The notes under the pieces: generated by a model
Told to the model about the DNA's origin: nothing
The model's database searches: none
What the model saw: the letters and a program-made list of their open reading frames with translations, nothing else
NCBI GenBank assembly: GCA_021827245.1
Contig: JAKAWN010000104.1
Location: 1 to 17,287 of the forward strand
Source: Acidobacteriota bacterium
GTDB taxonomy: Bacteria; Acidobacteriota; Terriglobia; UBA7540
DNA length: 17,287 nucleotides
Reading direction: 5' to 3'
Program-made: the position numbers and the translations under genes
Shown here: positions 1-17,287 of the stretch, piece after piece
Layout of the letters: each line of letters opens with the position of its first letter
How positions within the stretch are numbered: the stretch's first letter is position 1

Positions 1-266
1 GTGAAATCCTTGCACCTGGACCGGGCCGGTGACCTGGTGGTGGAGGTGGGCGGAGGAGCGGTTTATCTGCGGCGCCCCAGGGCCTATCAGGGGCGCGGAG
101 CGGGGCGGCGCGAAGTTGCGGTTCACTACCAGATAGGAGCAGGAAACCAGGTGGGATTTAAAGTGGGCCGGTACGATCGGCGGCAGGAGTTGGTGATTGA
201 CCCGGTACTGTCTTATTCGACCTATCTGGGAGGCAATGGCGGGGATATCGGCTACGGGATCGCCGT
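1..266 (+). repeat. Near-identical paralog tract, copy A
   Basis: This stretch aligns without gaps to 3890-4155 (offset 3889). By eye I count six differences in 266 bases, at positions 53, 156, 204, 207, 243 and 266. It covers the end of the DUF7948-like domain and the first half of SBBP blade 1. Past it the two genes fall to ordinary paralog similarity. The left limit cannot be seen because the window starts inside the tract. Confidence 0.9.
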
Positions 267-3159
267 CGATTCCTCCGGAGATGCCTACGTCACCGGAACC
301 ACTGGTTCGACGAACTTTCCCACAACAACGGCAGGGCAGCCCATCAACGGAGGCGGCAACGATATTTTCGTCACGAAGTTCAATCCTGCGGGAAGCGCAT
401 TCATCTACTCTGTCTACATGGGTGGGTCTGGGTCCGACACGGCAACTGGCATTGCGATCGACTCGGCGGGGGATGCCTACGTTGTCGGGTACACCTCTTC
501 CACCAGCTTTCCGACGACATCCGGCGCCCTTCAAGTAAGCAATGCTGGAAACATCGACGCGTTTCTGACCAAGCTGGACCCCACGGGCACGACCTTGGTT
601 TATTCCACCTATCTAGGTGGGAGCGGAATTGATTATGGGCGTGCCGTTGCGGTGGACGCCTCGGGCGATGCCTTTGTAACGGGTTCCACAACGTCAACGG
701 ACTTTCCCACGACGACGAATGCACTGCAACCTGGCCTCGTTGGCGGCTCCGATGCCTTCCTGACGGAAGTTAATCCAGAAGGCACGGGACCCGTGTACTC
801 AACTTACCTGGGAGGAAGTGGGGCGGATGAAGCTCTAGCCATCGCCTTGGACAGCGTGGGCGACGCGTATATCACCGGATATACTTTCTCCTCCAACTTT
901 CCTACTCAAAATCCCTATCAGTCGTCACTTTCGGGGACGTCTGACGCGTTCGTGTCGGAAATCAATCCCGAAACTTCCTCGCTGGTGTTCTCGACCTATC
1001 TGGGCGGGAGCGGATCAACCAGCGCTCAATCCATTGCCCTTGACTCGGCCGGAAGCATCTATCTGGCTGGCAACACCACGTCCACCGACTTTCCGGTAAC
1101 CAGCGGAGCCTTTCAGTCCACTAACAACGGCGGGGGAGATGCTTTTATCACCAAGCTGGCAGCCGGTGCAACTAACCTGGTCTATTCTACCCTGTTAGGT
1201 GGCAGCGCCACCGATCAGGCAGATGGGATAGCCCTCGATTCGTCAGGCGACGCTTTCGTGACCGGCTACACCCAGTCGAGTAACTTTCCATTGGTGAATG
1301 CTCTGCAAAGGGTCCTTGGCATTTCCGGGGCGAGCTCTTGCGGTGCGACTGTATGTGCTGATGCCTTCGTCAGTGAGCTTGGTCCTTCCGGGAATTTGGT
1401 CTATTCCACCTACCTGGGGGGAAGTGCCCAGGATTTAGGCCAGGCTATCGCGGTCGACTCTTCAAGCGCAGCATATGTAACAGGCAGCACCAACTCAACG
1501 AACTTCCCTGTTATTGCCGGAGCGATTCAGCCCGCTTATGCAGGAACGAATTCGAGCACTAATGCATTTGTCGCCAAGATCGCCCAACAAGACGCACCTG
1601 CAGCGGCGCTCAGCCCGCAGACACTCAATTTCGGGAACCAGGCTCTAAATACAACAAGCAAATCGCAGACTGTCACGCTGCTCAACGCGGGCAGCACGCC
1701 TCTCGGAATCACAAGCATCACTGCCAGCGGGCAGTTCAGTCAGACCAACAACTGTGGGACAATCGTCCCGGCAGGAGGTGGGACGTGCGCCATTCAAGTG
1801 ACTTTCACGCCAACCCAGACGGGCCCCGTGACAGATCAGGTCACTATCACGGACGATGCTCAAGGTAGTCCCCAGACAATCACGGTGACCGGGACTGGCG
1901 TCACGACGGGAGGCTCACTGACAGTTACTCCGACTAGTCTTTCTTTCCCTGCGACCACGGTAGGAAACACGAGCCCTCCACAGACAGTTCAGCTTACCAA
2001 TACCGGGAGCACGGCCGTCACGATTACCAGTATCAGCGTGTCGGGAGACTTCGCGGAAACAAACACTTGCGGAAATCTCGCCACAGGTTCTTACGTGCTG
2101 AACGTGGGTGCCGCCTGCACTGCCAGTGTTACTTTTACGCCAACGGCGACCGGAAATCGCACGGGTTCATTGATCGTCCAGGATAACTCAACCGCTGGTT
2201 CTCAGGACGTGTCCCTGAGTGGAACGGGAAACGCGGTCTTTTCGCTTTCGACGAGTGCAAGATCGGCTCTACTTCTCATTGGGACTAATTCAACAACGTT
2301 CACGATCGCAGCTTCAGCGCCCAGTTCGTTTCAAGGCACCATCGGCCTTTCATGCAGTAGCGGAGCAACATGCAGTTTTAACCCTGCTTCTATCACGCCA
2401 GGCCAGACGAGCGCACTCACAGTAAGCGGGCTCTCGTCAAATGTCTCCAACCCCGGTCCCGCCCCTCCCGTAGACTTCACAGTAACAGGAACCAGCGGCA
2501 GCCAGACGACAACTGTACCCCTGACGATCTTTTTCTCGGACTTCTCGCTGTCGCAGACTCCGCCGTCGCCGCCACTTGCCTCGGTTACGGCCGGTCAGTC
2601 GGCTACTTATGTCGTCACCTTGACCCCATCGAACGGATTCAAACAAGTTGTCCTGTTGGGTTGCTCGAATCTGCCACAGGGGACGGACGCCACGCCGCAA
2701 AAGCCTGATACGACTTGCACCTTCTCGCCGCCGGGACTCGTGCTGAACGGTACATCTGCGGCGACGTCTACTCTCACTATCAGCACTACGGCTCAGAAAT
2801 CCTCTTCTTTACGGCCGCTCCCTCGAGGGATTCCGCCGCCGGGAACAAATTCGAGATTTGAGTGGTGGGTTTTTCTGGTGGTACTCAGTATGATTTTTGT
2901 GGCTGCCGCAGCGCTCAGCGCGCGGCGCCTGCAAGGTACGACCCCGTTACGTCTTCGCGCGAGCTTTGCAGTCCTGATAATGGCGGGCTTACTGACTGCC
3001 TTTGTGGCTGCGTGCAACAACACTTATGTCGGCCCGACTACCACTCCGGCAGTGACGGGTACCCCCACGGGCACGCATACCATCGCGATTATCGGGACCA
3101 TGGGAAGCAACAGCAGCGTTAAGCGAACGACGACTGTTAACTTGGCAGTTTCACCTTGA
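1..3159 (+). CDS. SBBP beta-propeller / ASH-domain giant exported protein, 5' end outside window
   Basis: The reading frame is open from the first base. The GTG at position 1 is not the start: the complete paralog downstream has the same residues internally, after about 208 more N-terminal residues. Residues here: about 1-70, end of the N-terminal DUF7948-like domain; 71-530, seven SBBP repeats of the YSTYLGG...D...AIAVDSSGDAYVTG...FPTT type, the right number for one closed seven-bladed propeller; about 534-745, two choice-of-anchor-D/ASH domains (LNFGNQ..., TCAIQVTFTPTQTG); about 748-945, two Ig-like modules opening with FSLS/DFSLS; about 954-974, membrane helix; an Arg-rich loop; about 990-1005, a second helix ending FVAAC (Cys1005); then a 47-residue tail. 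Such proteins are known as secreted or surface proteins without an assigned enzymatic role, so adhesion or ligand binding is inference. The family call is strong; function is unknown. Confidence 0.9.
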   Translation: MKSLHLDRAGDLVVEVGGGAVYLRRPRAYQGRGAGRREVAVHYQIGAGNQVGFKVGRYDRRQELVIDPVLSYSTYLGGNGGDIGYGIAVDSSGDAYVTGTTGSTNFPTTTAGQPINGGGNDIFVTKFNPAGSAFIYSVYMGGSGSDTATGIAIDSAGDAYVVGYTSSTSFPTTSGALQVSNAGNIDAFLTKLDPTGTTLVYSTYLGGSGIDYGRAVAVDASGDAFVTGSTTSTDFPTTTNALQPGLVGGSDAFLTEVNPEGTGPVYSTYLGGSGADEALAIALDSVGDAYITGYTFSSNFPTQNPYQSSLSGTSDAFVSEINPETSSLVFSTYLGGSGSTSAQSIALDSAGSIYLAGNTTSTDFPVTSGAFQSTNNGGGDAFITKLAAGATNLVYSTLLGGSATDQADGIALDSSGDAFVTGYTQSSNFPLVNALQRVLGISGASSCGATVCADAFVSELGPSGNLVYSTYLGGSAQDLGQAIAVDSSSAAYVTGSTNSTNFPVIAGAIQPAYAGTNSSTNAFVAKIAQQDAPAAALSPQTLNFGNQALNTTSKSQTVTLLNAGSTPLGITSITASGQFSQTNNCGTIVPAGGGTCAIQVTFTPTQTGPVTDQVTITDDAQGSPQTITVTGTGVTTGGSLTVTPTSLSFPATTVGNTSPPQTVQLTNTGSTAVTITSISVSGDFAETNTCGNLATGSYVLNVGAACTASVTFTPTATGNRTGSLIVQDNSTAGSQDVSLSGTGNAVFSLSTSARSALLLIGTNSTTFTIAASAPSSFQGTIGLSCSSGATCSFNPASITPGQTSALTVSGLSSNVSNPGPAPPVDFTVTGTSGSQTTTVPLTIFFSDFSLSQTPPSPPLASVTAGQSATYVVTLTPSNGFKQVVLLGCSNLPQGTDATPQKPDTTCTFSPPGLVLNGTSAATSTLTISTTAQKSSSLRPLPRGIPPPGTNSRFEWWVFLVVLSMIFVAAAALSARRLQGTTPLRLRASFAVLIMAGLLTAFVAACNNTYVGPTTTPAVTGTPTGTHTIAIIGTMGSNSSVKRTTTVNLAVSP

Positions 3160-3265: not shown

Positions 3266-6200
3266 GTGAATAAGAAAAGTTGCGCTACGGTGCATAAGGA
3301 AGCCCGAAAGGGTCGAGGACAGTCGCCATGGGTGCGCTGCCTGGTTGGATTATGCCTTATTGGGTCCGCGCTGGTAGCCACCAGTGTGATCTCGAACGGA
3401 GTTCAAGCATCTCCCGTTCGCAGCACGCCTGAATTGCGACTCTGGGCAAGCCGCTACGCTCACATGCCAGTCAGCTTCGAGGTCAATCAGGGACAAACCA
3501 ACCCTCGGGTCAAGTATCTCGCCCGAGGCCAGGGTTACACGTTGTTCCTCACTTCCCGCGAAGCCGTCCTCGCTCTTCATCCTGAAAACCACGGACGCAC
3601 GCCGGGAAAGCAATCCTCTTCTCTGGTCGCTTTGAGCGTCCGGCTGCTGCGAGCCGCTTCGTCAGCGCAAGTTACCGGTGAGACTCAATTGGCAGGGTAT
3701 AGCGATTATTTTATTGGGAACAATCCTCGGGATTGGCACACGCATATTCCCAATTACGCCCAGGTTCGTTACCACCATATCTATCCCGGCGTTGACCTGG
3801 TTTATTTCGGCCGCCAGGGACAACTGGAAAACGATTTCCTGATCTCGCCGGGAGCCAATCCGAAGTCGATCCGCCTCGGTCTGCAAGGCGTGAAATCCTT
3901 GCACCTGGACCGGGCCGGTGACCTGGTGGTGGAGGTGGGCGAAGGAGCGGTTTATCTGCGGCGCCCCAGGGCCTATCAGGGGCGCGGAGCGGGGCGGCGC
4001 GAAGTTGCGGTTCACTACCAGATAGGAGCAGGAAACCAGGTGGGGTTTAAAGTGGGCCGGTACGATCGGCGGCAGGAGTTGGTGATTGACCCCGTTCTGT
4101 CTTATTCGACCTATCTGGGAGGCAATGGCGGTGATATCGGCTACGGGATCGCCGTTGATACTTCTGGAAACGCCTATGTAGTTGGAACCACCAATTCATC
4201 TAACTTTCCGACCACTACGGGCGTCCAAAGTGCCAGTTACTCCGGCAATGGCGATGTGTTTGTGGCAAAGATAAATCCCTCAGGCAACCCGTCAAGTACC
4301 TCGGCTACTCCACAACTTGTGTATTCCACATACCTTGGTGGCAGCGGGGCAGATTCGGGAGCTGCAATCGCAGTTAATGCCGGCGGGGACGCGTTCATCA
4401 CAGGTAGCACGTCCTCTTCAGACTTTCCAACGACCTCCGGTGCATTTCAGACCACATACGCGGGAGGGGGCGACGCCTTTGTCGCGCAACTGGCCAGCAC
4501 CGGCGCGAGTCTTGTTTACTCTTCCTACCTCGGAGGCAGTGGAGCAGACGCGGGATTAGGCATCGCGATCGATTCCTCAGGCAATGCCTACGTTACAGGT
4601 TCTACGCAATCGGCTGACCTTAAGATCACTACTAATGCCTTGCAACCGAACAACGCGGGGTCCTCGGACGCTTTCGTTGCTGAGGTCAACTTTTCCGGTT
4701 CTCAACTCACTTATCTTAGTTATTTGGGCGGATCACAAGCCGACGTTGGGGAAAGCATCCAAGTTAACAGCTCCGGCAGTATTTTTGTTGCGGGATACAC
4801 GTTTTCATCGAACTTTCCCATCCAAAATCCGTGTCAGGGTGCGCTCGCCGGTACGGTCAATGCTTTCGTCAGCAAGATCACGGTCAATTCCACAAGTTCA
4901 TCACTCGTGTTTTCGACATACCTAGGGGGCAGTGCCGACGATCGAGCCTATGGGCTTGCGCTGGATTCGAGCGGGAACATTTATGTCACGGGTGCCAGCA
5001 CATCAACCAATTTCCCGACTACAGTTGGCGTTTTCCAATTAACAAATCATGGACTTACTGACGCCTTTGTTGCAAAGCTGAACCCCTCGGGCCCGACGCT
5101 GGTTTACTCGACTCTTCTTGGGGGTGGCGGGACAGACCAGGGCAATGGAATTGCTGTGGATTCTTCGGGCGACGCCTTTGTAACGGGCTTCACGAATTCA
5201 AGTGATTTTCCGACACAAAGTCCTATCCAGGCTGTTCTGGGGATCAGTGGCGGCAGCGCCTGCGGCAGTGCCGCGTGCTCTGACGCTTTCGTTTCCGAGT
5301 TGAACCCCACCGGAACAGGGCTCGTCCAATCAACATATCTTGGGGGAAGCGGGGCCGATTTCGGCCAAGCCATCGCCCTCGATCCTTCGTTCAACGTCTA
5401 CATCACTGGCAGCACTTCCTCCACGAATTTCCCGGCAATTGCTGGCACCTATCAGGCGTATCAATCCAGCCTGGCGGGGGTGGCCGGCAATGCATTCATC
5501 GCTGAAATCCAACCGGCCAACTCCCCTGGCATGTCGATCGTGCCTCAAAAGATCGACTTCGGAAATCAGACCCTGAATGTCCGCAGTGCCGTGCAAACTG
5601 TTATGGTCACTAACGAAGGAACAGCTCCCCTGACCATAAGCTCGATCACTTTTACTGAGACGGATAGTACTGGGAATACGAACGACTTTGCCGAGACGGA
5701 CAATTGCGTGGGCACCGTAGCCGCGAGCGGCGGGTCCTGCACCATAAACATCACTTTCACACCCAAGACGGCGGCTCCGGAAACTGGAACCTTCAGCATT
5801 GCCGATAATGCCGCCGGGAGCCCGCAGACCATCAAGGTGAGTGGAACAGGTGTGACGACCGCAACTGCGGTCACAGTGTCTCCTTCCAGCCTTGCTTTCG
5901 GGAACGAGACCATCGGGGAGGTCAGCCCACCCCAAACGGTGACAATTACGAACACCGGCACGCAAACCCTGACTATCACCACCATCAGCACCACCGGTGA
6001 TTTCTCACAATCGAACACTTGTTCAACACTGAATAATGTGCTTAATGTGGGCCAAAGTTGCAGTGTGAGCGTGACTTTTGCTCCCACTGTCAGCGGCGCG
6101 CGAAACGGTACTTTGTCGATTAGTGATAACGCGGCCGGAAGTCCGCAGACGGTTGCCCTTTCGGGTACGGGCGTTGCGCAGTTTACGCTTTCTTCTCCGA

Positions 6201-7084
6201 GCCCCAATGTCACCACGTTGATTGGAAATACGACGGCAACATTTAAGATTGCGGCGTCGGCGCCCAGCAATTTCACCGGGAGCATCACGCTTGCCTGTCC
6301 CTCAACGTTAACAGCCAATGGAGGAACGTGTTCCTTCAGTCCCGCGAACATCCTCGCGGGGCAAACCAGTACTCTGACGATCAGCAATCTCACCAACGCC
6401 TTGCCCATAAACACGGTAAATAGCGAGTACGGTGACGTATTCCAGTTTCAAGTTCTAGGAACTAGCGGTTCACAAAATACAACAGTCAATTTAAATCTTC
6501 TTTTTGCGGATTATAGTTTGTCCACTGCTGCTCCGGCGCTGGCTACGATCGTTCCCGGAGCACCCGCTAACTACACGATTCTCCTGACGCCGATCAACGG
6601 ATTCAGCAACCAGGTCCAGCTCGCATGTGGAGACGGAATGCCTCCTGGGGCCACGTGCAGCTTCTCGCATTCCTCGGTCACTCCAAGCGGTTCCGCTTCC
6701 TCCAATATCACCTTGACGATCCACACTACAAAGACCAGCGGATCTCCACCGCCTCCCTACATTCCGCCTGATGTGACGCCCCCCTTGGTTCTGTCCCTGT
6801 TAGCTCTAGTCTTGGTGGGTGCGCTCGTGCTCGTGCGCAAGCGGGATCAAATCCCGAATCTGGCGGGCCAGCGGTGGCTCCGCATTCAGGTTTGTACGCT
6901 TTGCCTGCTGATTCTTTGCGCGGTGTTCCTGGGTTCTTGCCGGAGCGCCCCAGCTACCACCGGTTCGACAACGGGGAATTACACGATCACGATCAATGGC
7001 ACGCTCGGTTCCAATTCCTCTGTTATCAGGAGTACGCTCGTCAATTTGGCTATCACATGCCCGCCGGGGCAGACTTGCCCGTGA
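3266..7084 (+). CDS. SBBP beta-propeller / ASH-domain giant exported protein with DUF7948-like N-terminus
   Basis: 1272 residues. The GTG start is chosen for AAGGAG 7 nt upstream and a signal peptide beginning at once: basic n-region, hydrophobic stretch about 27-45, likely cleavage near VQA-SPV. About 60-270 is a DUF7948-like domain (SFEVNQGQTNPRVKYLARGQ, DYFIGN, YPGVDLVYF). About 276-750 holds seven SBBP blades. Blade 3 has lost the usual FPTT end (it reads SADLKIT) and blade 4 is weak. About 755-970 has two ASH-type domains, each with a conserved Cys pair. About 972-1157 has two Ig-like modules. About 1171-1192 is a membrane helix, followed by VRKRDQ and other basic residues, then a second helix about 1209-1225 ending FLGSC (Cys1225) and a 47-residue tail ending CPPGQTCP. 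Tandem paralog of the preceding gene. Likely exported and membrane-held; adhesion or ligand binding is inference, with no catalytic motif seen. Confidence 0.93.
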   Translation: MNKKSCATVHKEARKGRGQSPWVRCLVGLCLIGSALVATSVISNGVQASPVRSTPELRLWASRYAHMPVSFEVNQGQTNPRVKYLARGQGYTLFLTSREAVLALHPENHGRTPGKQSSSLVALSVRLLRAASSAQVTGETQLAGYSDYFIGNNPRDWHTHIPNYAQVRYHHIYPGVDLVYFGRQGQLENDFLISPGANPKSIRLGLQGVKSLHLDRAGDLVVEVGEGAVYLRRPRAYQGRGAGRREVAVHYQIGAGNQVGFKVGRYDRRQELVIDPVLSYSTYLGGNGGDIGYGIAVDTSGNAYVVGTTNSSNFPTTTGVQSASYSGNGDVFVAKINPSGNPSSTSATPQLVYSTYLGGSGADSGAAIAVNAGGDAFITGSTSSSDFPTTSGAFQTTYAGGGDAFVAQLASTGASLVYSSYLGGSGADAGLGIAIDSSGNAYVTGSTQSADLKITTNALQPNNAGSSDAFVAEVNFSGSQLTYLSYLGGSQADVGESIQVNSSGSIFVAGYTFSSNFPIQNPCQGALAGTVNAFVSKITVNSTSSSLVFSTYLGGSADDRAYGLALDSSGNIYVTGASTSTNFPTTVGVFQLTNHGLTDAFVAKLNPSGPTLVYSTLLGGGGTDQGNGIAVDSSGDAFVTGFTNSSDFPTQSPIQAVLGISGGSACGSAACSDAFVSELNPTGTGLVQSTYLGGSGADFGQAIALDPSFNVYITGSTSSTNFPAIAGTYQAYQSSLAGVAGNAFIAEIQPANSPGMSIVPQKIDFGNQTLNVRSAVQTVMVTNEGTAPLTISSITFTETDSTGNTNDFAETDNCVGTVAASGGSCTINITFTPKTAAPETGTFSIADNAAGSPQTIKVSGTGVTTATAVTVSPSSLAFGNETIGEVSPPQTVTITNTGTQTLTITTISTTGDFSQSNTCSTLNNVLNVGQSCSVSVTFAPTVSGARNGTLSISDNAAGSPQTVALSGTGVAQFTLSSPSPNVTTLIGNTTATFKIAASAPSNFTGSITLACPSTLTANGGTCSFSPANILAGQTSTLTISNLTNALPINTVNSEYGDVFQFQVLGTSGSQNTTVNLNLLFADYSLSTAAPALATIVPGAPANYTILLTPINGFSNQVQLACGDGMPPGATCSFSHSSVTPSGSASSNITLTIHTTKTSGSPPPPYIPPDVTPPLVLSLLALVLVGALVLVRKRDQIPNLAGQRWLRIQVCTLCLLILCAVFLGSCRSAPATTGSTTGNYTITINGTLGSNSSVIRSTLVNLAITCPPGQTCP
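3890..4155 (+). repeat. Near-identical paralog tract, copy B
   Basis: Partner of the tract at 1-266, with six mismatches and no gaps. Outside it, third positions and many residues differ between the genes. Local gene conversion or recent recombination is therefore more likely than a recent whole-gene duplication. Confidence 0.9.
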
Positions 7085-8176: not shown

Positions 8177-8620
8177 ATGAAGATCTTTCTGTCTGTTTTT
8201 GTAGTCTTGCTTCTGGCAAGCTCTTCCGGCTGGGCGGTTCTTGGAGAGTATGAGAATTCTGTAGCCACCGACCAGCAGCGAATGCATGCGCAGCTTCGCG
8301 AGATGTCGGGCCAAGGCTATTCAATCAAACAGCTCAGCTCGTTAAACGGCAAGGTTGTCAGGGAATATGTTTCGCCAAAGGGCATGGTTTTTGGGATTTC
8401 GTGGCAGAGCCCGACCATGCCTGACCTGCGTCAGTTGCTGGGTTCCTACTTTGCACAGTTCCAGCAGGCAGCGCGGTCCCGGCGGCAGCGCGGCGGGCCG
8501 CTGGTGATCAGGACTAAAGACTTTGTACTGGTCAGCGGCGGGCACATGCGGGCGTTCCATGGGGTTGCATATGTACCAAGCCTCGTGCCGGCCAACGTAT
8601 CAGCGGAGGTGGTGCGATGA
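8177..8620 (+). CDS. DUF2844 family exported protein
   Basis: 147 residues. The ATG at 8177 is chosen because GGGAGG lies just upstream and a signal peptide starts there (MKIFLSVFVVLLLA..., likely cut after GWA at residue 20); the frame is open further upstream without such signals. Family-typical parts are visible: VREYVSPKGMVFGISWQ, then PTMPDLRQLLGSYF, and near the end SGGHMRAFHGVAYVPSLVP. From memory, DUF2844 proteins are short, periplasmic, of unknown function and often sit beside DUF3443. Here the stop overlaps the next start as ATGA, so translation is probably coupled and the two products may act together. No catalytic motif is seen. Confidence 0.87.
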   Translation: MKIFLSVFVVLLLASSSGWAVLGEYENSVATDQQRMHAQLREMSGQGYSIKQLSSLNGKVVREYVSPKGMVFGISWQSPTMPDLRQLLGSYFAQFQQAARSRRQRGGPLVIRTKDFVLVSGGHMRAFHGVAYVPSLVPANVSAEVVR

Positions 8621-9903
8621 GACTGCCTAAAGGATGGTGGCACACCCGGTTCGTTCTCTTCCCTCTGCTTGCGGCAGTTTCCCTGGCCCTGGCCGGTTGC
8701 GGCGGAGGAGGCGGGTCCAGTCCGACTCCGACCCCCTCGCCCAGTACGGCAGAAAACACGCAAGCCATTGAAGTCAACAGCGGCCCGGCTGGCGACTACA
8801 CCAACGGGGTCTTCACCAGTGTGACCATCTGCGTGCCGGGCACCTCGAACTGTCAGACCATCAAGGATGTCCTGGTGGACACAGGCTCAGAGGGGCTGCG
8901 CTTGCTTTCCTCGGCAGTGAACCTATCCTTGCCGGCAATCACCGACAGCAGCAGCAGCGGCAACACGTTGAACGAATGCGCTGCCTTTGCAGACGGATCG
9001 TACGTCTGGGGGCCGGTTGTGTCCGCAGACATCCAGATGGCAGGCGAAAAGGGAAGCGGAGTTCCTATCCAAATCATCGACAGCTCAAATCCCACCAAGT
9101 ATCCGGTACCCAGCTCGTGCATCAGCAGCAGCTCAGCACCCGAAAACTCCGTGCAATCGCTCGGGGCCAATGGGATCCTGGGAGTCGGGGTCTTCGAACA
9201 GGACTGCGGCTCCTCGTGTGCCGCCACGACTAGTGTGCCGGCTCTGTATTATCTGTGTCCTCCCACTGCGGGCTCGGTCTGCAACAGCGCCTCCGTTCCG
9301 GTGCAGTATCAGCTTCAGAACCCGGTTTGGACGTTTCCTCAGGACAACAACGGCTTGCTCATTTCGCTGCCATCCATATCTGACACCGGGGTGCCGAGCG
9401 TCTCCGGATCGATGATATTTGGCATTGGAACCCAGTCTGACAACGCTCTCGGCAACGCTCAGGTCTATACGACTGATCCCAGCGGGAATTTCCATGCAGT
9501 TTACAACAACATCGACTACAGCAACAGCTTCATCGACAGCGGATCAAACGCCCTCTATTTTCTCGATGCCACTACTCTTAACATCCCGGAGTGTCTGGAT
9601 TCCCAAGGGAATCCGACAGGATTTTACTGCCCTCAATCAACCCTGAGTTACACAGTAACCACCACTGGCCTGAACGGAACCTCGAACCCGGTCAGCTTCA
9701 ACATCGCGAATGCTTTTGCTCTATTTGCGGCAAATAATGGTCAGAATTTTGCCTTCAATGATCTGGGAGGTGACAGCGGAACCAGCCAGCAGACAGACTA
9801 CGTTGATTTCGGCCTGCCATTCTTCTTTGGCCGCAAGGTTTTTGTGGGAATCGAGAACCAGACAGGGCCAAACGGAGTCATCGGCCCCTATTGGGCATAT
9901 TAG
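8617..9903 (+). CDS. DUF3443 family lipoprotein with pepsin-like signatures
   Basis: 428 residues. The start overlaps the DUF2844 stop (ATGA), with GGAGG at 8605-8609, 7 nt upstream. A lipoprotein signal peptide ends LAGC, with Cys28 as the lipid site, followed by a Gly/Ser/Thr/Pro linker to about 48. The mature part has VDTGSEGLRLL (Asp88), NGILGVG (185-191), FIDSGSNALYF (Asp307) and, close to the C-terminus, GLPFFFGRKVFVGIENQ. This order matches bilobal pepsin-like aspartic proteases: D-T-G-S, then GILG, then D-S-G-S, then a final strand like the pepsin C-terminus. Ten further Cys suggest disulfides. DUF3443 is formally uncharacterised; the protease fold is my inference and activity is unproven. 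Likely an envelope lipoprotein working with the DUF2844 protein. Confidence 0.87.
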   Translation: MRLPKGWWHTRFVLFPLLAAVSLALAGCGGGGGSSPTPTPSPSTAENTQAIEVNSGPAGDYTNGVFTSVTICVPGTSNCQTIKDVLVDTGSEGLRLLSSAVNLSLPAITDSSSSGNTLNECAAFADGSYVWGPVVSADIQMAGEKGSGVPIQIIDSSNPTKYPVPSSCISSSSAPENSVQSLGANGILGVGVFEQDCGSSCAATTSVPALYYLCPPTAGSVCNSASVPVQYQLQNPVWTFPQDNNGLLISLPSISDTGVPSVSGSMIFGIGTQSDNALGNAQVYTTDPSGNFHAVYNNIDYSNSFIDSGSNALYFLDATTLNIPECLDSQGNPTGFYCPQSTLSYTVTTTGLNGTSNPVSFNIANAFALFAANNGQNFAFNDLGGDSGTSQQTDYVDFGLPFFFGRKVFVGIENQTGPNGVIGPYWAY

Positions 9904-10139: not shown

Positions 10140-10856
10140 TCAGGCAGGCGTTGGCACAAACCTGTAACCCAGGCCGCGAACGGTGAGAAAGTGACGGGGA
10201 TTCTGAGGATCTTCCTCCAGTTTCTGCCGCAACATCCAGACGTGGGCATCAACAGTGCGGGTGAGCGTCGCTCCGTCATAACCCCACACCTCCCGAAGGA
10301 GTTCCTCGCGTGAAAGCGTTGTACCCTGCTGTTGAATAAAGTATGCGAGCAACTCGAATTCCCGCGCCGACAACTCGACGAGTTTCCCCTCGCGTCGCAC
10401 CGCCGTGCGGCGGAAGTCGACCGTCACGGAGCCAAACTGAAAGGCCGAATCCCGGCTGTTCTGTTGAAGCAGAGACGCTCGCCGCAGTAATGCTCCAACG
10501 CGCGCCAGCAGTTCAGAAGGCTCGAAGGGCTTTGCCAGATAGTCATCGGCGCCAAGCTTCAAACCGGAAACTCTGTCGTCAACCTGGCCGCGCGCCGTCA
10601 GCATGATGATCGGCGTATGAACGGAACGGCGCCGCAGAGTACGGCAGATTTCAAAACCGTCTTTATGTGGCAACATAACATCCAGCACAATCAGGTCATA
10701 CGCCCCTTCCGATGCAAGATCGAGGGCTTCCTGGCCGTCCTGAACGCTCCCCACCTGGTAGCCTTTGCTGGTCAGAAGATCGGTGAGCGTCAGCACTAAG
10801 GCAGCGTCGTCTTCCACCAGCAGCAGCCTGGGCTGGATGATCGGCCTTCGCTTCAT
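10140..10856 (-). CDS. OmpR/PhoB-family response regulator
   Basis: 238 residues. The receiver domain (about 10-125) has all key residues: acidic pair Asp16-Asp17, phosphoacceptor Asp59 in LIVLDVMLP, Thr87 in IIMLTARG and Lys109 in DDYLAKPF. The winged-helix DNA-binding domain (about 150-236) shows LSAREFELLAYF, TVDAHVWMLRQKL and TVRGLGYRFV, the OmpR/PhoB pattern. The ATG at 10856 is chosen for the receiver's usual N-terminus; a GTG at 10874 is an alternative, and neither has a clear ribosome site. The open frame further upstream overlaps the kinase gene and is not protein-like. It follows the histidine kinase by 49 nt on the same strand, so they form a two-gene operon. Likely targets, by inference, are its own operon and the Spy-like operon converging on it. 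Confidence 0.95.
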   Translation of the reverse strand: MKRRPIIQPRLLLVEDDAALVLTLTDLLTSKGYQVGSVQDGQEALDLASEGAYDLIVLDVMLPHKDGFEICRTLRRRSVHTPIIMLTARGQVDDRVSGLKLGADDYLAKPFEPSELLARVGALLRRASLLQQNSRDSAFQFGSVTVDFRRTAVRREGKLVELSAREFELLAYFIQQQGTTLSREELLREVWGYDGATLTRTVDAHVWMLRQKLEEDPQNPRHFLTVRGLGYRFVPTPA

Positions 10857-10905
10857 ACTTGCTTGTGTTTTCACCTGCAACAATTCCAGTTGAGCAGCAC
10901 GCCCT

Positions 10906-12870
10906 TTAAACAGCCTCCCGCTGGGGTTCTGAGATGGCGGGCAGATGGAGAGTGAAGCACGATCCTTTCCCTTTCGTGCTCTCGACGTCCACCCGGCCGC
11001 CGTGGGCTTCAATATGGCGGCGCACAATGCTGAGTCCCAGCCCGGCTCCCGGCACTGTCGAGGCCAATACGCGCCGCCCACGATAGAACGGCTCAAAGAG
11101 GTGCGGCAAATCGCCCGGATCGATGCCCGGACCATGATCTTCAACGGAAATCTGAACTTCAGCAGGTTCCGCTTTGGGGACAGGCACAGCCGCCACGCGA
11201 AGCCATTTCTCCGCACCGGCATATTTGATGGCATTGGAGATCAGGTTCTTGACCGCGGTCTCCACCGCCGGCGATTCAGCCAGCACCGACGGAAGATTAT
11301 CAGCGACTTTTTTCTCGACCTGCCACCCCCCATCACGGAGAGCCGGCTCATATTCGGCAAGTGCCCGCTCGATAATTCCCGAAATCTGGGTCGGAATAAG
11401 CTCATAGCGTTTGCCGCCGGACTGGATGCCGGCATAGTTCATCACCTGCTCAATCATGCCCGCAAGCCGCCTCGCTTCATTTTGCACAAGCTCGCCATAT
11501 TCCTGCACCCGGCTCGATTTTCGGATGACCCCGCTGGCAAGATTGAAGCCGGCGGATTGAATGGCAGCAAGGGGAGTGCGAAACTCGTGTGAAACGCCCG
11601 CGACGAATTCCACCTCGCGCCGCGCAAGCTCCCGCGCTCGGTGTGTGGTGATCACCAGCAAACCCATGCTGAATGCCAGGAGAAAAAGCACTCCGAATCC
11701 CAGGGCAAGATTCCGCTGCCGTGTGCGGGCAACAACTGCACCAATCGAACCGGCCTTGCTCCTGGCCACCAGGACCCAGGCATTCGCTTTCAGGAAATGG
11801 TCACGTGCAATCATGCTCTGCGTACCGCTCACTCGGGGAAGCACGCGCATTGCCCCAAAAGCAGAATCGCCCCTTTGATCACCAGGTTCAGTGCGGAAAG
11901 TGAATTCCCAGCGGCGGCCACGGAAACCGGGACCTCTGAAAGAAGCAAAAAGCACTTCCTCCGCATCCGGCGAAGCGAAAGATGACGGCGTCAAGCCCGC
12001 CTCAGAGCTGTAAATGATTTTTTGCGGATCGCCTGACAGAACCGCAACCTGATAATTGGACAATCCTGCCTTGCTGAAGCTTTGTTCCACCAAGCGCGGG
12101 ATGAAGCGTGTCTTGAGATAGCTGAGATCAAGCCCCAGGAAGCACCAACCCCGTAATCGGCCCGGCAACAGAGGGCGCATCGGCATCGTAGAAAACCTTT
12201 TGCCGCCACGTTGTTGTCGCGCTGATCCGAATTCCTCATGCCCTGTAAATAGTTCAGGAGGGGGATTCAGCCCTGACGGAGCCTGCGTGTGTGGCCACGG
12301 ACCGAATCCTTCATCCTGCCCCTCGAACTCCATCAAGGGGACCACGACTAACGGCCGGCCCCCATCCACTGCAAAGGGAAAACCTCCAGCGCGGTAAAAC
12401 AGGACATGATGTGTCCCTCGAGTATTGAAGTTTTCTATTCTCGGACGGAAAACCTGTAGCGGTTGAGGCATCTGCGCTTGCTTGAACTTCCCGGTTTTGG
12501 GATCGAACGTTCGGTACTGCACCTTTCCGTCATTATCAATTGTCGCCACACTGAGGCTTGACACTAAAGGTCCGTTCGCGTCATTCCTTCGCCACTGGGT
12601 GTAGAAACTTCCAAGGTAGTTCGCCACTGCACGGGTCGTAGTTGCTCGCGGTATGGGACGGAATGATGCGCGAATTTCCAGAATCGGCGCTATGAATTCT
12701 CCCCGAAAACTGCGCATTGCAGCATTTAGGAATTCTTGCTGCTGTTCACGGTCTGCGACGCTCGCACGGTTGATCCACCGGTAAAGTAGTACCCCTGCCA
12801 GCATAAGCCCAACGGCGAATACCGCGACGAACAGTACCTGGTCGTTCGACTTGGACAGCCTCCAATGCAT
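10906..12870 (-). CDS. Membrane sensor histidine kinase with large periplasmic domain
   Basis: 654 residues. Membrane helices are near 11-32 and 387-408, enclosing about 350 extracytoplasmic residues with no domain I can name. The cytoplasmic part is complete: HisKA with His428 in VSHEFRTPL; N-box with Asn546 in NLISNAIKYA; G1 box DHGPGID (Asp578); F-box LFEPFYRG; G2 box GAGLGLSIV. It should autophosphorylate and pass phosphate to Asp59 of the adjacent regulator. The sensor loop holds a Pro/Gly-rich insert (about 190-225) and no obvious metal-binding cluster. The ATG at 12870 sits right before the first helix but lacks a ribosome site. A TATAAT lies 8 nt upstream, so the mRNA may be nearly leaderless. 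Gene order kinase-then-regulator is less usual than the reverse. The Spy-like gene nearby suggests an envelope-stress role. Confidence 0.95.
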   Translation of the reverse strand: MHWRLSKSNDQVLFVAVFAVGLMLAGVLLYRWINRASVADREQQQEFLNAAMRSFRGEFIAPILEIRASFRPIPRATTTRAVANYLGSFYTQWRRNDANGPLVSSLSVATIDNDGKVQYRTFDPKTGKFKQAQMPQPLQVFRPRIENFNTRGTHHVLFYRAGGFPFAVDGGRPLVVVPLMEFEGQDEGFGPWPHTQAPSGLNPPPELFTGHEEFGSARQQRGGKRFSTMPMRPLLPGRLRGWCFLGLDLSYLKTRFIPRLVEQSFSKAGLSNYQVAVLSGDPQKIIYSSEAGLTPSSFASPDAEEVLFASFRGPGFRGRRWEFTFRTEPGDQRGDSAFGAMRVLPRVSGTQSMIARDHFLKANAWVLVARSKAGSIGAVVARTRQRNLALGFGVLFLLAFSMGLLVITTHRARELARREVEFVAGVSHEFRTPLAAIQSAGFNLASGVIRKSSRVQEYGELVQNEARRLAGMIEQVMNYAGIQSGGKRYELIPTQISGIIERALAEYEPALRDGGWQVEKKVADNLPSVLAESPAVETAVKNLISNAIKYAGAEKWLRVAAVPVPKAEPAEVQISVEDHGPGIDPGDLPHLFEPFYRGRRVLASTVPGAGLGLSIVRRHIEAHGGRVDVESTKGKGSCFTLHLPAISEPQREAV

Positions 12871-16745: not shown

Positions 16746-16757
16746 CCCCTTGGGGAG
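16746..16757 (+). promoter_or_regulatory. Ribosome site of the TIG lipoprotein gene in a small CUUG-type hairpin
   Basis: CCCC-TT-GGGG (16746-16755) can fold as CCC-CTTG-GGG, a stable tetraloop type. It includes most of the ribosome site GGGGAG (16752-16757), 7 nt before the ATG at 16765. The stem is very short, so any effect would be mild. Confidence 0.3.
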
Positions 16758-16764
16758 AAATGCT

Positions 16765-17287
16765 ATGAAGCCACATGTACTCGAACGAAAGTTTTTTGTG
16801 TGCCTCGCCATTCTGCTTGCGGCAGCTATTCCAATGTTTTTTGCGGCATGCGGCGGGGGGATGATTTCTGCCACCGGAGCGAACCAAAATCCGAACGTTA
16901 CGGTCAAATCAATAGTGCCGGATTCAGGGCCTCTAACAGGAGGGACAGTGGTTCTGATCAACGGATCGAATTTTTCGTCCGCCACCCAGAACACTCCTCC
17001 CGCGGTCACGTTCGGAGGGGTAGCCGCAACCCAAGTTTCTATCATCAGCCCTTTGCAGGTGAAGGCTGTAGTCCCGGCCCACGCCGCCGGAAGCGTCAGC
17101 GTCGAAGTCTCTACGGCGGATGGTGAGTCTTCCACCCTCCCTGGAGGCTTCACTTACACGTCCGGTTCTCTCAGGATCAGCGGCGTGTCACCTAATTCCG
17201 GCCCCACTGGCGGAGGAACAGCAGTCACGGTAAACGGCTCCGGCTTTTCAACGGGCGCAACCGTCTCTTTTGGTGGCAGCACAGCCT
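16765..17287 (+). CDS. IPT/TIG-domain lipoprotein, 3' end outside window
   Basis: 174 codons are visible, without a stop. The ATG at 16765 is supported by GGGGAG 7 nt upstream and an immediate lipoprotein signal peptide: basic residues to Lys9, hydrophobic FFVCLAILLAAAIPMFFAAC, with Cys29 as the lipid site followed by Gly-Gly-Gly. A first TIG domain (about 47-131, IVPDSGPLTGGTVVLINGSNF, VTFGGVAATQVS) and the start of a second (from about 135, ISGVSPNSGPTGGGTAVTV) are seen. It is related to the TIG/FnIII gene before it but lipid-anchored, so the pair could be one secreted and one membrane-held partner (inference). Total length and later domains are unknown. Confidence 0.9.
   Translation, partial: MKPHVLERKFFVCLAILLAAAIPMFFAACGGGMISATGANQNPNVTVKSIVPDSGPLTGGTVVLINGSNFSSATQNTPPAVTFGGVAATQVSIISPLQVKAVVPAHAAGSVSVEVSTADGESSTLPGGFTYTSGSLRISGVSPNSGPTGGGTAVTVNGSGFSTGATVSFGGSTA

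Follow-up and report, generated by a model that had tools for sequence, protein, structure and literature searches.

The 17,287-nt stretch of DNA analysed here (the window; contig JAKAWN010000104.1 of the Acidobacteriota assembly GCA_021827245.1) carries two neighbouring paralogous genes, ORF A and ORF B (ORF, open reading frame), both encoding SBBP beta-propeller proteins with ASH/choice_anch_D immunoglobulin (Ig)-like domains and both ending in a membrane hairpin and a short tail. This ending, a hairpin set inside the terminal Ig-like domain and a candidate lipid-anchor module, is the subject of this report. ORF A contains a partial DUF7948 domain, seven SBBP stretches and choice_anch_D/ASH Ig-like domains; its DUF7948 match covers the 214-position profile only from position 148 onwards, indicating that the gene starts upstream of the window, and the numbering of its Cys1005 is therefore window-relative. 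The two proteins share 53% identity over 1089 columns, while the visible start of ORF A (window 1-331) and the matching part of ORF B (3890-4220) share 92% DNA identity over 331 bases, which points to a recent duplication or gene conversion.

A first-pass annotation of this DNA had described ORF A 2857-3159 as a hydrophobic helix, an Arg-rich loop, a second helix ending in FVAAC (Cys1005) and a 47-residue tail, and both letters and coordinates were correct on re-reading (Table 1). The first helix of the hairpin (transmembrane helix 1, TM1) reads WWVFLVVLSMIFVAAAAL, the Cys1005 codon, at the end of the second (TM2), lies at 3013-3015 and the stop codon at 3157-3159. The observation was understated, as the neighbouring ORF B carries a like tail, with the codon of the corresponding Cys1225 at 6938-6940.

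Table 1 Features of ORF A and ORF B in the window (AF2, AlphaFold2 model; profile, uninterrupted-Ig-repeat profile)
Feature	Position	Strand	Remarks
ORF A, SBBP beta-propeller/ASH protein	1..3159	+	5' end outside window
ORF A, first part of split last Ig-like domain, through the strand named E here	2530..2784	+	Profile positions 1-70; AF2
ORF A, TM1 helix of inserted hairpin	2854..2928	+	AF2 helix 109-133; hydrophobic core 2869-2919
ORF A, Arg-rich loop ARRLQGTTPLRLRAS	2920..2964	+	4 Arg, +4, 0 acidic residues
ORF A, TM2 with internal lipobox FVAAC	2944..3015	+	AF2 helix 139-162; hydrophobic core and Cys 2965-3015
ORF A, 47-residue C-terminal tail	3016..3156	+	Profile positions 67-97; AF2
ORF B, paralogue of ORF A with complete N-terminus and like ending	3266..7084	+	
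ORF B, first part of split last Ig-like domain	6500..6730	+	Profile positions 2-74
ORF B, TM1	6785-6835	+	
ORF B, basic loop	6836-6889	+	
ORF B, TM2 with lipobox FLGSC	6890-6940	+	
ORF B, 47-residue tail with last two Ig strands (~6977-7012, ~7031-7057)	6941..7081	+	Profile positions 68-95

Both endings are matched by the NCBIfam 20.0 model NF058595.1 (invert_tail, 'lipo-invert putative C-terminal anchoring domain'), ORF A with 48.9 bits (residues 921-1050) and ORF B with 42.4 bits (residues 1147-1259) at a curated cut-off of 37 bits, and on ORF A the match spans strand E, the hairpin and the Cys to the end of the tail. The model also matched all 61 members of our alignments A1 and A2 at E<=0.01. 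The two endings are thus real members of an already listed but uncharacterised module. The first-pass annotation named no description of how such endings are processed; at the database level, NF058595.1 models them as a putative anchor. In a literature search that left preprints and most subscription journals outside its reach, we found no paper using the names 'lipo-invert' or 'invert_tail', nor any account of anchoring by strand complementation to a protein's own lipidated fragment. NF058595.1 is known here by its name, which calls the anchor only putative, its cut-off and its match ranges; the split-Ig reading does not come from it, and what is new here is the test of whether the hairpin lies inside one Ig domain, at one point, with the tail being the rest of that domain.

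Relatives were taken from two protein searches in which the candidates were the sequences sharing most words: the C-terminal part of ORF B as query gave 148 relatives and P0118 gave 1671, with 120 listed in each case. Among the 120 listed homologues of the first search together with ORF A and ORF B, a pair of hydrophobic helices was present within the C-terminal 220 residues in 91 of 122, and the Cys in 90 of these 91, the exception (P0114) looking like an unrelated membrane protein. Adding four sequences with a sub-threshold first helix gave a set of 94, all picked with the Cys, in which only the residue before it (position -1) is informative; this residue, not a selection criterion, was Ser, Ala or Gly in 94 of 94. 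The two listings combined, 240 sequences, were then classed by their C-terminal Ig profile and helices, not by the Cys. The last two Ig strands close 210 of them, and the 30 that failed this profile test include some hairpin proteins; P0083 and P0092, for example, were scored as such among the 122 sequences above but not in this classification or in the protein-family counts below. A script flagged 189 endings as interrupted, of which P0072, P0109, P0153 and P0199 were removed as plain Ig domains with a hydrophobic strand, leaving 185 split Ig endings with the Cys in 185 of 185 and Gly, Ala or Ser at -1 in 184 of 185 (Arg in P0137). These two counts, together with the Cys in 27 of 27 genomic split-domain loci described below, are free of selection for the Cys, whereas the rows of A1 and A2 were taken from sequences having it, and the non-redundant set (124 of 211) was chosen with the Cys and, for protein rows, also with Gly, Ala or Ser at -1, which drops P0137.

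Conservation of this extent rules out chance or artefact. It also bears on an ordinary inner-membrane hairpin in which the Cys would be incidental or have another role: helical hairpins are common membrane anchors, but the Cys is invariant in the split domains and loci while most other TM2 columns carry ~0.4-1.3 bits in the non-redundant set, making such a hairpin highly improbable. The basic columns of the loop reach 2.2-3.2 bits in the same set, and across the 94 hairpin proteins the loop has on average 4.1 basic and 0.13 acidic residues in 12, with at least three basic residues in 81 of 94. The proposal that basic loop, hydrophobic helix and lipobox form an internal copy of a lipoprotein signal is thereby borne out as far as computation goes, by a conserved Cys and a mostly conserved loop. 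TM2 and the Cys would also make a plausible N-terminal lipoprotein signal, as if the tail were translated on its own, from an internal start codon, into a small lipoprotein; however, no stop breaks the frame across the hairpin, only 81 of 182 sequences have a Met in the loop or the first part of TM2 (GTG and TTG uncounted), and we hold this to be the least probable of the explanations considered. Many tails carry CGGG after the Cys. Two other genes in the window, a DUF3443 gene (8617-9903) and a TIG domain gene (16750-17287), are N-terminal lipoprotein-like and read LAGCGGGG and FAACGGGM, like many tails.

The stretch before the hairpin matched the first three quarters of the uninterrupted-Ig-repeat profile in 94 of 94 hairpin proteins, and 84 of the 94 tails matched the missing end of this profile at an independent E-value below 1e-3, a level reached by 1 of 470 shuffled tails. 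Two subtypes were modelled with AlphaFold2, and the models agree with the profiles in making the tail part of the predicted Ig domain. In the 209-residue ORF A model, the body strands run from residues 4-10 to 78-85, and the tail contributes strands 181-191 and 198-208 in a block with a predicted local distance difference test score (pLDDT) of 94-96; these strands, at window positions 3070-3102 and 3121-3153, are predicted to complete the Ig domain. Profile ranges and models together uphold the earlier suggestions that the tail resembles the last two strands of the preceding Ig-like fold and that the hairpin is inserted in that domain, at a single insertion point, with the predicted tail completing the Ig sheet rather than lying apart from it. 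In a structure comparison of the AlphaFold2 models, body and tail matched one contiguous Ig domain in a crystal structure, and the highest-ranked solved match was the Ig-like domain of the Micromonospora viridifaciens sialidase (2ber, 1w8o), which forms one contiguous stretch (residues 404-502) whereas the domain of the ORF A type is split. Alignment A2 gave no match to solved sequences, and the single Foldseek match at E<=0.001 was a ciliary protein.

Ig domains carrying a pair of Cys residues (ORF A ~2662-2718) make up 180 of 184 split domains and 172 of 204 uninterrupted ones in the hairpin proteins, but 13 of 310 in hairpin-less relatives. A disulfide joining tail to body was considered and rejected: both residues of the common Cys pair belong to the body, and a further Cys is found in 4 of 182 tails.

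In a phylum sample of 247 genomes, matches occurred at E<=0.001 in 120 genomes and above the cut-off in 30; at most 17 candidates were scored per genome, so copy numbers are lower bounds. One genome (G085) has at least 11 matches above the cut-off among those listed, though these were not all viewed one by one. Of thirty loci fetched, 27, all from different genomes, proved to be genuine split domains carrying the Cys, L024 on reading by eye and the other 26 by script. The three weakest, L029 to L031, which may or may not lie above the cut-off, were one apparent N-terminal lipoprotein and two uninterrupted Ig domains, and the capture of the former by the tail model shows the likeness of both signals; the 27 confirmed tail genomes are used below. 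In the listed relatives that were checked, the module ends otherwise unrelated proteins: subtilases (19 of 20), FG-GAP proteins (8 of 9), PF07995 proteins (4 of 4) and kumamolisin-like peptidases (2 of 9). P0201, named as from a Phycisphaerae bacterium, also has a split domain, a possible case of spread beyond Acidobacteriota or of misbinning.

We lean towards the view that the ending is a lipid-anchor module within the terminal Ig-like domain, whose lipidated and probably LspA-cut tail stays in the fold. The protein would be exported by Sec through its N-terminal signal, a Sec-like N-terminal helix being present in 73 of 93 hairpin proteins, not counting ORF A, and the C-terminal module sits in the loop before the penultimate strand. 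TM1 would halt transfer, with the basic loop remaining inside. By the positive-inside rule such a loop should make TM2 run N-in/C-out, the orientation of a normal lipoprotein signal, and TM2 would re-cross the membrane as an ordinary lipoprotein signal peptide does. Lgt would likely add diacylglycerol to the Cys, and LspA would probably cut before it, a step somewhat less likely than lipidation; the released tail would stay folded in the Ig domain as its last two strands, and the large body would also be held by a lipidated peptide sharing no peptide bond with it. The topology, lipidation, cleavage, non-covalent holding and final membrane we infer from lipoprotein biology.

Several observations weigh against this lipid-anchor reading. 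The internal lipobox fits the pattern [LVI][ASTVI][GAS]C in 39 of 94 sequences and a relaxed pattern in 78 of 94, and the -3 residue is often off the published lipobox (Gln in 30 and Met in 18 of 184, versus Leu in 101). When body and tail were joined with the hairpin taken out, the profile score did not rise (median 58.5 bits versus 60.5 for the body alone), the joined sequence scoring above both parts in only 7 of 94; as this score is unhelpful, support for the split Ig domain comes from the complementary profile ranges. AlphaFold2 takes the chain as continuous, so the binding of a cut tail is outside its reach. Lgt and LspA were found in 30 of 30 genomes searched, and Lgt in 239 of the 247 genomes of the phylum sample, but an enzyme this near to universal says little by its presence. 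An N-terminal lipobox was absent from all 93 of these hairpin proteins, ORF A again not counted, which does not discriminate because only 1 of 28 relatives without a hairpin has one. Finally, unless TM1 were itself cut, it would go on tying the body to the inner membrane after LspA had acted, a point that the first-pass annotation does not raise, and no universal TM1 cleavage motif was found.

In a two-chain maturation, LspA would free the lipid-bearing tail and a further cut in or before TM1 would free the body, leaving strand complementation alone to hold it, which is conceivable though doubtful. Alternatively, Lgt would lipidate the Cys and the chain would stay uncut or be cut only rarely, with hairpin and lipid forming a dual anchor at the inner membrane. 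TM2 is long enough as a membrane helix for this (16 to 23 residues from the last Lys or Arg to the Cys, median 20), TM1 would be the second tether, and the sequence nowhere demands cleavage; the small -1 residue of the split endings, however, fits signal peptidase II and would not obviously be needed for acylation alone, and we consider such an anchor unlikely.

Both helices might instead be removed, by LspA and by a separate intramembrane protease cutting TM1 as sortase-like enzymes do on CTERM tags; the body would then come away from the inner membrane attached to the lipidated tail alone. TM1 with its Arg cluster resembles such a tag, and TM1 starts with a Y-A-x-W-L-like aromatic motif whose Trp makes up 69% of its column (4.19 bits). 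Exosortase (PF09721, E<=0.001) was found in 22 of 27 confirmed tail genomes versus 64 of 220 others. However, five confirmed tail genomes (G008, G024, G180, G217 and G226) had no PF09721 match, which led us to reject exosortase as a required partner despite the enrichment, and the enrichment may reflect shared ancestry. The TM1 motif, frequent in the non-redundant set, was likewise rejected as universal, being absent from many genome loci, and we judge removal of both helices rather improbable. Two or more Lgt matches, some of which may be fragments, occurred in 22 of 27 confirmed tail genomes versus 63 of 220 others; with a single match in G001, G024, G122, G211 and G217, a second Lgt as dedicated partner was not retained and the association is left as a correlation. 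In many tail genomes (G008, G037, G095 and others), the top Lgt match scores below what is usual in the phylum sample.

If the lipid-anchor reading is true, predictors reading only N-termini would fail to recognise these proteins as lipoproteins, and a shared fold, not a peptide bond, would join them to their lipid anchor. Should two-chain maturation be true as well, a very large protein would be held on the membrane by its own lipidated fragment alone, an anchoring principle that some of the Acidobacteriota would employ many times over in each genome. Downstream in the window, 10140-12870 on the minus strand holds overlapping histidine kinase and response regulator reading frames.

Chaperone-usher pili use donor-strand complementation, in which an Ig fold is completed by a strand of another chain. 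There the donor strand is another protein's, whereas here it would come from the cut end of the protein itself; chaperone structures were among the fold matches of body and tail. PEP-CTERM proteins end soon after a helix and an Arg cluster, and an exosortase is present. TM1 and its Arg cluster resemble this tag, but here the chain runs on through TM2 and the tail, and five confirmed tail genomes have no PF09721 match; the module is not a PEP-CTERM tag. The MYXO-CTERM/myxosortase system, as described in PMC11980579, shares a C-terminal helix, an Arg cluster and an invariant Cys for which lipidation is proposed. In that account, however, the Cys stands before the only helix and the terminal part is removed, whereas here it follows a second helix of opposite direction, and beyond it lies a predicted strand pair rather than a short Arg-rich end; the module is not a MYXO-CTERM tag. 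A 'C-terminal lipobox', in PMC9287161 and PMC8689077, denotes the end of an N-terminal signal. To that classical lipoprotein signal of Lgt and LspA (lipobox as given in PMC8689077) the module is alike in its basic region, hydrophobic helix, [GAS]-Cys and expected N-in/C-out direction, but the classical signal is N-terminal, whereas the one described here lies near the C-terminus, after a first helix, with 33-58 residues past the Cys in the 94 hairpin proteins.
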